Assembly: GCA_021848545.1 (NCBI GenBank)
Contig: JAJZUL010000011.1
Coordinates: forward strand, 1 to 64,000
DNA: 64,000 bases
Source of the DNA: Pseudomonadota bacterium
Lineage (GTDB): Bacteria; Pseudomonadota; Alphaproteobacteria; Rhodospirillales; Magnetospirillaceae
Direction of reading: 5' to 3'
Shown here: positions 5,070 through 8,111 of the stretch, piece by piece
How positions within the stretch are numbered: position 1 is the stretch's first letter
Layout of the letters: every line of letters begins with the position of its first letter
Made by a program: the position numbers and the translations under genes
The notes under the pieces: generated by a model
What the model saw: only the letters and a program-made list of their open reading frames with translations
Told to the model about the DNA's origin: nothing
Databases searched by the model: none

Positions 5070-5530
5070 CGGGCACGTCCTTCCTTTTCTCGGCCCGGGC
5101 GAGCCTGCCCGAATCCCTTCGTGATCGTCAGCCGGTTGGTATCGCCGTCGCGGCTGTAATCGCACGAATCCGTGAACGTCTTTACCAGATGGATGCCCAG
5201 CCCACCAATCGCGCGATCCTCGATATCGGAATCGAGATCCGGCGGCGGCTGGTCCAGCGGGTTGAAGGCGCGTCCATCGTCGATCAGGGTGATGGTGACC
5301 ATCCCGGCCGGCGATCGGAGCAGTTCCACGGTGATCCGGTGGGAGCCGTCATCGTCATAGGCGTAAGAGACGATGTTGGTGAACAGCTCGTCCAGAGCCA
5401 GACGAATCCGCCCCACGCCCTGTTCGTCGCCGCCCGCCCGCCGGCAGAACGCATCGACCACGTCCAGCAAGGTCTGCCGGTTGGCCAGATCGTTGTCGAA
5501 GTGCAGGACGGCACTGTCCTTACGCGCCAT
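5066..5530 (-). CDS. RsbW/SpoIIAB-type ATPase (anti-sigma kinase-like)
   Basis: A 154-residue HATPase_c domain with N-box ALDELFTNIVSYAY, G1 box LIDDGRAFNP and G2 box GGLGIHLVKTF. This is the fold of serine kinases that phosphorylate STAS partners and sequester sigma factors or other clients. ATG 5530 has GGAAGGGGG upstream and overlaps the glycosyltransferase stop (TGATG), so the two genes are probably co-translated. The client protein cannot be told from sequence; it might be an enzyme of the lipid locus instead of a sigma factor. Confidence 0.88.
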   Translation of the reverse strand: MARKDSAVLHFDNDLANRQTLLDVVDAFCRRAGGDEQGVGRIRLALDELFTNIVSYAYDDDGSHRITVELLRSPAGMVTITLIDDGRAFNPLDQPPPDLDSDIEDRAIGGLGIHLVKTFTDSCDYSRDGDTNRLTITKGFGQARPGREKEGRAR

Positions 5531-6717
5531 CACCCGCCCCCTTCCGCTTTGTGGAGTTCGTTTCCGTTCGCATCGCCCATCCGCCGACCGCGCCACCAGA
5601 TGTCCCGCCCCGCCAGCGCATGCAGGGCCACGCCCGGCATGATCAGTTCCCGCGCCATCATGGCAACAAGGTGGAATTGGTTAAAGTGCATTCTCCGCTG
5701 TTTCAACCAGACCGTTTCGGCCGCCATCCACAATCCGGCCTGGGTCGCGCCCCAGAAGCCCGCCTGAAGCGGGGTCAGACCCCACAGCGCCGTCAGGCCG
5801 GCGGTCAGGCAGCCGACCGACGCGATCAGACCGGCCAAAGGCTCCAACGCGAAGACGATCGGAACCATCCGTTTGCGATGGCGGGCCCAGCGCAATTGCC
5901 GTCCCCAGATTTCGGCGAAGCGCCGTTTCCCCACCGGATGCGGGGCGCCTTTGGCGATCAGACGGGTGCGCAGCCCCAGCCGGCGGACCGCCAGGGCGGC
6001 GGCATGGTCCTCGGCGCTGGCCGCCGCCATCGCCGTTACGCCGCCCATGCGGGCGAAAACCTCCGCCGTCAGCGTCATGACCCCTCCCACCGCGGTGATT
6101 CCGCCCAGCCGGTCGGCCAGCTCCAGCCAGCGCAACTGGTGGCCGTTGAGAAAGGCGCATTCGATTTCCGCCGCCAGTCCCGAAGGTTCGCAGCCGGCCT
6201 TGGCGGCGGAAACCAGGCCTATGTCGTTTCCCAATTGCGCCACGGCGTCGTCGAGATAGCCCGGGGGCAGGTCCAATCCGCCATCGACCAGGATCAGCAG
6301 CGGCCGGTCGGCGGCGGCGAAGCCCTTCACCAGATTGTCGAGCTTGGGGTTGCCGGTCGGCGCCTCGTCGCCGATCAGCACCGCGCCCATCCCGCCCGCC
6401 AGGGACGCGACGAAGGCCCGCGCCGGCGCGACGGCGCCGTCCTCATCCCGCGCGCAGCAGATCAGGACCTGATCGTCGGGGCGGAGCTGGCGCCGCAGCG
6501 CGGTGAAGAAGCGCGGCGAGGCGTCGCGTTCCCCCTGCAACGGCACCAGGATGGCGGCGGCGGTCCGCCGCCCCGGCCTCCGCGCGTGCCGGGGCGGCGG
6601 CAGCGCGGCCGTCGTCACATGCAGCGCCAGGGTCCCGCCGCCCCAGGCCAGAAGAAACAGATCAAGCAATCCGCAGCCCCCGAAACTCCTTGCCAGCCAT
6701 CCGGCAATACGTACCAT
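5530..6717 (-). CDS. GT21-like (ceramide glucosyltransferase / HpnI family) glycosyltransferase
   Basis: The 395-residue protein has an N-terminal hydrophobic segment (about 1-35), a GT-A catalytic domain and C-terminal membrane helices after about 285. GT21-like features are GNPKLDNLVKGF, the acidic pair in ILVDGGLDLPP, the third Asp motif ASAEDHAA and the (Q/R)xxRW motif in GRQLRWARHRK. Family members transfer sugar to ceramide or hopanoid lipids. The nearby serine palmitoyltransferase-type gene favours ceramide, but this is inference. ATG 6717 is chosen because upstream sequence looks non-coding and faces the divergent MFS gene. Confidence 0.72.
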   Translation of the reverse strand: MVRIAGWLARSFGGCGLLDLFLLAWGGGTLALHVTTAALPPPRHARRPGRRTAAAILVPLQGERDASPRFFTALRRQLRPDDQVLICCARDEDGAVAPARAFVASLAGGMGAVLIGDEAPTGNPKLDNLVKGFAAADRPLLILVDGGLDLPPGYLDDAVAQLGNDIGLVSAAKAGCEPSGLAAEIECAFLNGHQLRWLELADRLGGITAVGGVMTLTAEVFARMGGVTAMAAASAEDHAAALAVRRLGLRTRLIAKGAPHPVGKRRFAEIWGRQLRWARHRKRMVPIVFALEPLAGLIASVGCLTAGLTALWGLTPLQAGFWGATQAGLWMAAETVWLKQRRMHFNQFHLVAMMARELIMPGVALHALAGRDIWWRGRRMGDANGNELHKAEGGG

Positions 6718-6777
6718 CGCCCGGTCCGACAAGAACCAGTTTTCGTTTTCCGGACGGCTTACGGCAGGGAGCGTACC

Positions 6778-7974
6778 ATTTCCAGGCAGCTTCGCCCGCT
6801 CATCGCCATCATGCTCCTCGACGGGTTCGGATTCGGTCTGGGACTTCCGGTGTTGCCGCCGCTGATCTCCCATTTCGTCGGCGGCGACGCTGTCGCCACC
6901 GCCCAGGCTCTGGCCGGTTTGTTCTCGCTGTTTTCCGCCATCCAGTTCCTCGCCATGCCGGTGCTGGGCGGCTTAAGCGACCGTTTCGGGCGGCGGCCGA
7001 TCTTTCTGTGGTCGCTGACCGGGGCGATGGGGGATTATCTGGTGTCGGCGGTGGCGCCCCATCTCTGGTGGCTGTTCGCCGCCCGCATCTGGACCGGCGT
7101 CACCGCCGCCAACGTGGTGGTGGCCAATGCCCAGGTCGCCGATTTCACCCCGCCGGAGCGGCGCGCCCATCTGTTCGGTCTGGTCGCCGGCCTGTTCGGC
7201 CTGGGATTGATCGTCGGCGCCATCGTCGGCGGCGCCCTGTTCCCCCTGGGCCTGCGCGCCGGTTTCATCGCGGCGACGGCGGTGGCGGCGGTCAATGTCG
7301 GTCTGGCCGCTTTTCTTCTGCCGGAATCCCTGGCGCCGAATCTGCGCCGTTCGCCGGAAAAGGCCGAAATGATTCCGCTGCTGGCGATCCGGGTGCTGCG
7401 GCGTCGGCCGGCCGGCTTCGGCCTGGCCGTTTCCTTGGTGCTGGGCTGGCTGGCGGCCGCGTCCATCCAGGCGATCTGGCTGGTCTATACCGCCGATCGC
7501 TACGGCTGGACCCCGCTTCAGAACGGCTTCGGTCTGGCCGTGTACGGGATCGCCATGGCCGTATCCCAGGGGGTGCTGGTGGGCTATGGCGTGAAGCGGT
7601 TCGGCGGCGGTGCCGTCATCCTGGGGGGGGTGGCGATCTCGGCCGCCGGCTGCGTCATCGCCGGGTTGGCCTCGGCCGGCTGGGGGGCCTATGTCGCCCT
7701 TGCCATCCTGGCGCTGGGCGAAATGGCGGTGCCGGCCACGCGCGGCCGGCTTTCGGGGTTGTTCCCGCCCGAGGAACAGGGGCGCCTGCAAGGGGTTTTG
7801 TCCAGCCTCAACAGTCTGGCGTCGGTGGCGGCGCCGCTGGTGGCGGCCGGCCTGTTTTCCCGTTTCGCCGCCATGGGCGGCATCGGTGCCGGCGCGCCGC
7901 TGTTCGGCGCCGCCCTGCTGTGCGCGTTGGGCGGGTTGGTGGCGTGGAAAAGCCTAGCAGTCCGTGAATCTTAG
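6778..7974 (+). CDS. TetA-like MFS transporter, probable AUU start
   Basis: A 12-helix major facilitator with the loop 2-3 motif GGLSDRFGRRP and helix 1 signature LLDGFGFGLGLPVLPPL. The first in-frame ATG, at 6811, falls inside helix 1 and has no ribosome-binding site. An in-frame ATT at 6778 is preceded by CAGGGAG about 7 bases upstream and gives ISRQLRPLIAIMLL, the normal N-terminus length for TetA relatives. I therefore favour initiation at ATT. The last codons and the TAG stop overlap the repeat at 7971. Substrate unknown. Confidence 0.8.
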   Translation: MSRQLRPLIAIMLLDGFGFGLGLPVLPPLISHFVGGDAVATAQALAGLFSLFSAIQFLAMPVLGGLSDRFGRRPIFLWSLTGAMGDYLVSAVAPHLWWLFAARIWTGVTAANVVVANAQVADFTPPERRAHLFGLVAGLFGLGLIVGAIVGGALFPLGLRAGFIAATAVAAVNVGLAAFLLPESLAPNLRRSPEKAEMIPLLAIRVLRRRPAGFGLAVSLVLGWLAAASIQAIWLVYTADRYGWTPLQNGFGLAVYGIAMAVSQGVLVGYGVKRFGGGAVILGGVAISAAGCVIAGLASAGWGAYVALAILALGEMAVPATRGRLSGLFPPEEQGRLQGVLSSLNSLASVAAPLVAAGLFSRFAAMGGIGAGAPLFGAALLCALGGLVAWKSLAVRES

Positions 7975-8111
7975 AGTGTGATGCCCTAAATGTGCATCAC
8001 ACTCTAAGTCGTTTTGTTTTTCCCTCTGCCTAAGCGCGCGCGTCCGCGCGCTTGGCCGCGCCCTCAATGGGCGCTAGAGCGGCGTGCCTCGTATTTAAGG
8101 CTCGCCGCTCT
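7971..8111. repeat. Four-hairpin intergenic repeat element, copy 1
   Basis: Four consecutive palindromes are visible. TTAGAGTGTGATGC/GCATCACACTCTAA is a perfect 14-bp stem; AAGCGCGCG/CGCGCGCTT is a perfect 9-bp stem. GCGCCC/GGGCGC follows around TCAAT, then AGAGCGGCG/CGCCGCTCT. A second copy with the same order of stems is at 32601-32759. The element supplies the stop codon of the MFS gene. Confidence 0.75.

Follow-up and report, generated by a model that had tools for sequence, protein, structure and literature searches.

We identified a gene for a Tet(A/B/C)-like MFS efflux transporter that probably initiates at an AUU codon (plus strand, 6778 to 6780; positions refer to the window, i.e., the complete stretch of 64,000 nucleotides analyzed). 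The Shine-Dalgarno sequence, the position relative to Tet profiles and NorA, the extent of helix 1, and the absence of a canonical alternative converge on AUU 6778, making it the best candidate; the starts of homologues and a chance test were considered in addition. If true, the few bacterial genes outside infC with an AUU start would gain a further member, and the N-terminus, which standard gene calling would shorten by 11 residues to a point within helix 1, would be corrected. Annotation rules on start codons hide such genes.

Gene layout and ribosome binding site

The reading frame spans 6778 to 7974 on the plus strand and comprises 398 codons, with ATT as codon 1 followed by 397 codons, before it is closed by TAG at 7972 to 7974. 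The product matches PF07690 with 126 bits and NF012174 with 270 bits, missing the cut-off of 475 bits of the latter, and is classified from sequence as a relative within MFS_1, not as a member of a named Tet class. At the 3' end, a perfect inverted repeat (TTAGAGTGTGATGC...GCATCACACTCTAA, 7971 to 8007) overlaps the stop codon. The repeat has four copies in the genome (contigs C4, C14, C31, and C62) and may act as a terminator or represent a dispersed intergenic element.

On the 5' side, a divergent glycosyltransferase gene (PF13506, minus strand, 5530 to 6717, likely ATG at 6717) bounds a gap of 60 nt ahead of ATT. From 6718 to 6810, not a single ATG, GTG, or TTG occurs in any of the plus-strand frames, which also rules out a frameshift error in the gap masking a canonical start. 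The first in-frame ATG, and the expected pick of a standard gene caller, is located at 6811 to 6813, while the next one on the 5' side (6619) lies inside the opposite-strand glycosyltransferase gene. The start at GTG 5686 in our own greedy call for the transporter is an artefact, caused by the frame being open over a long stretch. A weak promoter-like pair of hexamers (TTGCCA-16-TACCAT, plus strand, 6690 to 6717), based on a consensus match only and found once versus 0.2 times expected from shuffles, would leave a leader of ~50 nt ahead of ATT. Structure or a known RNA family in this leader was ruled out, its folding being no better than that of shuffled sequences (z 0.87) and a search of Rfam families giving no match.

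The segment 6765 to 6780 reads CAGGGAG-CGTACC-ATT. Confirming the original prediction of an in-frame ATT at good distance behind CAGGGAG (6765 to 6771), the Shine-Dalgarno sequence GGGAG (plus strand, 6767 to 6771) pairs with the anti-Shine-Dalgarno octamer at -7.2 kcal/mol and leaves a spacer of 6 nt between GGAG and ATT. The octamer is presumably the one present in this organism, no 16S rRNA gene (RF00177) having been found in the assembly, in line with its draft status. The same calculation returned +2.0 kcal/mol for ATG 6811, which was correctly anticipated to be devoid of a Shine-Dalgarno sequence, -2.0 for ATG 6619, +0.2 for ACG 6754, and +1.2 for ATC 6808. Among the in-frame near-cognate codons, only AGG 6784, an implausible start, equaled the energy of ATT when the site was allowed a loose window, and ATT stood alone at -7.2 kcal/mol when a tight one was applied. 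As a yardstick, 28 of the 49 gene calls in the analyzed stretch carry a match of at least 4 nt, a loose comparison as their starts were partly picked by this very property. An equally good energy was reached at 4.5% of 3000 random positions and at 4.2% of the 1078 ATT trinucleotides of the window. Random stretches of 22 codons (n = 6000) held an ATT with so good a site in 0.3% of cases, and any of ATT, ATC, or ATA in 1.3%; these chance tests were designed after the site had been seen.

We infer from this arrangement that ribosomes use the AUU. GGGAG would position the 30S subunit 6 nt upstream of the codon, and the initiator tRNA would read AUU with a mismatch at the third position, the protein still beginning with Met (MSRQLRPLIAIMLLDGFG...). 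Initiation would be expected to be weak and to be further lowered by IF3, so that basal synthesis of the pump would be low. The original prediction had linked AUU starts to autoregulation by IF3. While AUU holds as the best candidate, the autoregulatory part does not carry over because the gene is not infC: its product is an MFS transporter and not IF3, which could at most lower initiation here.

Relatives of the transporter and position of the N-terminus

Searches of GTDB contigs, of the family, order, class, and phylum, and of plasmids returned no relative above 43% identity. The GTDB contigs contained four loci with 27-42% identity, and the genus is represented by this single genome among those searched. 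On the family level, 7 of 55 genomes (own genome included) gave matches at E <= 1e-40, the best of the others being 34-38% identical. Further matches came from 10 of 317 genomes of the order (at 1e-60), 17 of 385 of the class, and 8 of 398 of the phylum. Plasmid matches stayed below 60% on protein level (at most 42% among the matches listed) and were restricted to pieces of 67-75% on DNA level, and viral contigs gave no match to the transporter. As a consequence of lacking a relative above 43% identity, comparison does not distinguish conservation of the AUU from a recent mutation of the start or from an assembly error of one base.

Nevertheless, the more distant relatives allowed the N-terminus to be placed. 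Counting from ATT, the residue number equals the profile position in 9 of 15 Tet profiles (Tet(30), E, H/J, Y, H, G, J, B, and D); the remaining offsets are -1 (A/B/C/D profile and Tet(62)), -2 (A), +2 (C), -6 (Tet(42)), and -7 (Tet(65)). NorA is likewise in register, its position 12 aligning to residue 12 of the transporter. A canonical start is absent from the N-terminus thus supported by homology in the transporter itself. In 42 of 44 homologues (26-43% identity), a canonical start is present at the ATT column or up to 40 codons upstream of it, counted as a candidate start rather than the one actually used. Such candidates lie exactly at this column in two (L003 and L016), one to three codons upstream in five (L021, L026, L028, L035, and L043), and further away in others. 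From these positions, ATT appears to be the short end of the natural start range of the homologues, with 6811 outside of it. The two remaining loci (L022 and L040) have no canonical start upstream of helix 1 and both have one at +4. L022 carries an ATG that overlaps the preceding stop codon in a different frame, which makes a short start or an error in the frame likely there. The original prediction had held conserved residues on the 5' side of 6778 to be incompatible with its start; no block of this kind was visible among the homologues (judged by inspection rather than quantified), and start positions varied.

On the level of individual residues, the signal is smaller. Residues 1-11 add approximately 2-4 bits in 14 of the 15 Tet profiles. 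In a profile built from 40 of the 44 homologues (all except L001 to L004, each homologue given an assumed start and its first residue set to Met), they add 3.3 bits, a gain matched by 59 of 1000 random extensions and by 155 of 1000 shuffled ones. The in-frame segment immediately preceding ATT, placed at the same position, scored 357.5 compared with 357.9 for residues 1-11. The paralogues L006 and L007 fell below the tblastn cut in the homologue alignment. Homology of residues 1-11 themselves is faint. Codons 2-11 (SRQLRPLIAI, plus strand, 6781 to 6810) encode two cytoplasmic leader arginines and the first residues of helix 1. They carry G or C at the third position in 9 of 10 codons, versus 12 of 20 in the stretch 6718 to 6777 and 329 of 387 from 6811 onward. 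Their codon score is neutral (-0.8 bits over 10 codons), better than that of the other two frames and that of 6718 to 6777 (-12.5 bits).

A structural model of the transporter (five-row alignment, mean pLDDT 75.6, and 81 over residues 1-10) assigns residues 6-34 to helix 1. ATG 6811 encodes Met12 and is located inside this modelled helix, in agreement with the earlier claim that the first ATG truncates it: starting there would remove 11 residues, five of the leader and six of helix 1. Membrane proteins follow the positive-inside rule, and apart from Arg3 and Arg6 there is no positive residue before helix 1 or at its beginning. Because both would be lost, a start at 6811 would be unfavourable yet possible.

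Alternative explanations

The most obvious alternative is initiation at ATG 6811, possibly on a leaderless or Shine-Dalgarno-independent mRNA, yielding a protein of 387 residues whose helix 1 is shortened. No other canonical start lies in range, the 22-residue stretch from Met12 could still span the membrane, and 5 of the 49 gene calls in the window likewise lack a Shine-Dalgarno match, with energies weaker than -5 kcal/mol at the start chosen for them (1475, 16548, 18427, 43613, and 48575). We nevertheless consider it unlikely, given the unfavourable pairing energy, the loss of both arginines and of the first six modelled helix residues, and the fact that no homologue was seen to be forced to start at the 6811 column. 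Also rather unlikely is that the start codon was lost, by a recent ATG-to-ATT or another mutation, leaving a poorly translated or silent gene on its way to a pseudogene. The isolation of the gene within the 55 family genomes fits a dispensable or acquired gene, but the frame is intact over 398 codons and, together with the third-position composition and the good Shine-Dalgarno sequence, gives no sign of decay. Moreover, a lost ATG at 6778 would leave a weakly initiating AUU, so that this explanation shades into the main reading.

A one-base assembly error would turn the codon into an ordinary ATG, the true base at 6780 being G. Only a single change separates ATT from ATG, and the assembly is a draft of 85 contigs that yielded no 16S gene and is the only one of its genus among those searched. 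Single-base errors are rare in assembled contigs, however, and no frameshift was seen in the transporter gene, making this explanation very improbable. The least probable explanation is a start further upstream, at the in-frame ATG 6619 or another near-cognate codon, giving a long N-terminal extension. Although the frame is open far upstream of 6778, this stretch is antisense to the glycosyltransferase gene, its codon score between 6718 and 6777 is poor, the pairing energies of ATG 6619 and ACG 6754 are weak, and the promoter-like site sits downstream of 6619. Counting against initiation at AUU itself, passages of PMC13009471 describe it as a poor start codon where measured. Taken together, we retain AUU 6778 as the probable start.

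Apparent AUA start of infC and comparison with known systems

The infC gene of the same genome also appears, from its sequence, to start at a non-canonical codon. Its frame on contig C1 opens right after a stop with ATA GCC AGA CCA CCG ATG (locus L048, minus strand, ATA at 2034 to 2032), with a Shine-Dalgarno energy of -7.3 kcal/mol at ATA and of -2.7 at the ATG five codons on. In the family, infC is present in 52 of 55 genomes, and all 30 loci read (own locus included) have ATA at this column together with a Shine-Dalgarno sequence (-5.6 to -11.4 kcal/mol). The ATG five codons on is absent or without a good site, and in several loci a canonical start is missing over 40 codons. The pattern is not entirely uniform, as one locus (L051) has a TTG with a good site three codons past ATA. 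The apparent AUA start of infC makes AUH starts plausible in this lineage, although it is not evidence for the transporter. Of the two, the AUA codon conserved at the infC start across the family is arguably the firmer example. Among the papers listed in our literature search, none had a title dealing with infC starting at AUA in alphaproteobacteria, which is not proof of absence. That AUH starts outside infC serve as a low-expression device in this lineage, with the level of IF3, apparently itself initiated at AUA throughout the family, setting the output of a TetA-like pump via AUU, is a speculative and quite improbable extension.

As read here, the transporter adds a new case to a kind of start that is rare but already known. 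Passages of PMC5472188 and a title cited in PMC13009471 give AUU starts for Escherichia coli infC and pcnB, which resemble the start proposed for the transporter in that AUU is read as start with limited yield. Unlike the transporter gene, E. coli infC encodes IF3 itself and is autoregulated for that reason. Passages among PMC5559785, PMC13009471, PMC5472188, and PMC10158994 further describe an AUU start of Xanthomonas infC found by proteogenomics, mention an ATT start in Deinococcus deserti, and report lowered yields from such starts as well as IF3 repression of an odd start outside infC. The latter is exemplified by Streptomyces sigR, whose GTC start is repressed by IF3 according to passages of PMC5472188. 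It shares with the transporter an odd start in a non-infC gene, at which IF3 lowers translation, but differs in the codon (GTC versus ATT) and in that the IF3 effect was tested in sigR, whereas we infer it for the transporter.

In Staphylococcus aureus, passages of PMC13009471 describe an AUU start for cvfC1 and AUA starts for ccpN and infC. They have in common with the transporter a non-canonical start combined with a Shine-Dalgarno sequence, with reduced yield in S. aureus. According to the same passages, those starts have extended Shine-Dalgarno sequences, are conserved, and were mapped by ribosome profiling, in contrast to the moderate GGGAG of the transporter. A counterpart in terms of annotation is Borrelia burgdorferi pncA/BBE22, for which the abstract of PMC13398362 describes an AUU start in a non-infC gene whose canonical annotation removes conserved N-terminal structure, as it would in the transporter. 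Genetic and biochemical data together with a crystal structure support the start of pncA/BBE22, whereas the transporter is known here from sequence.
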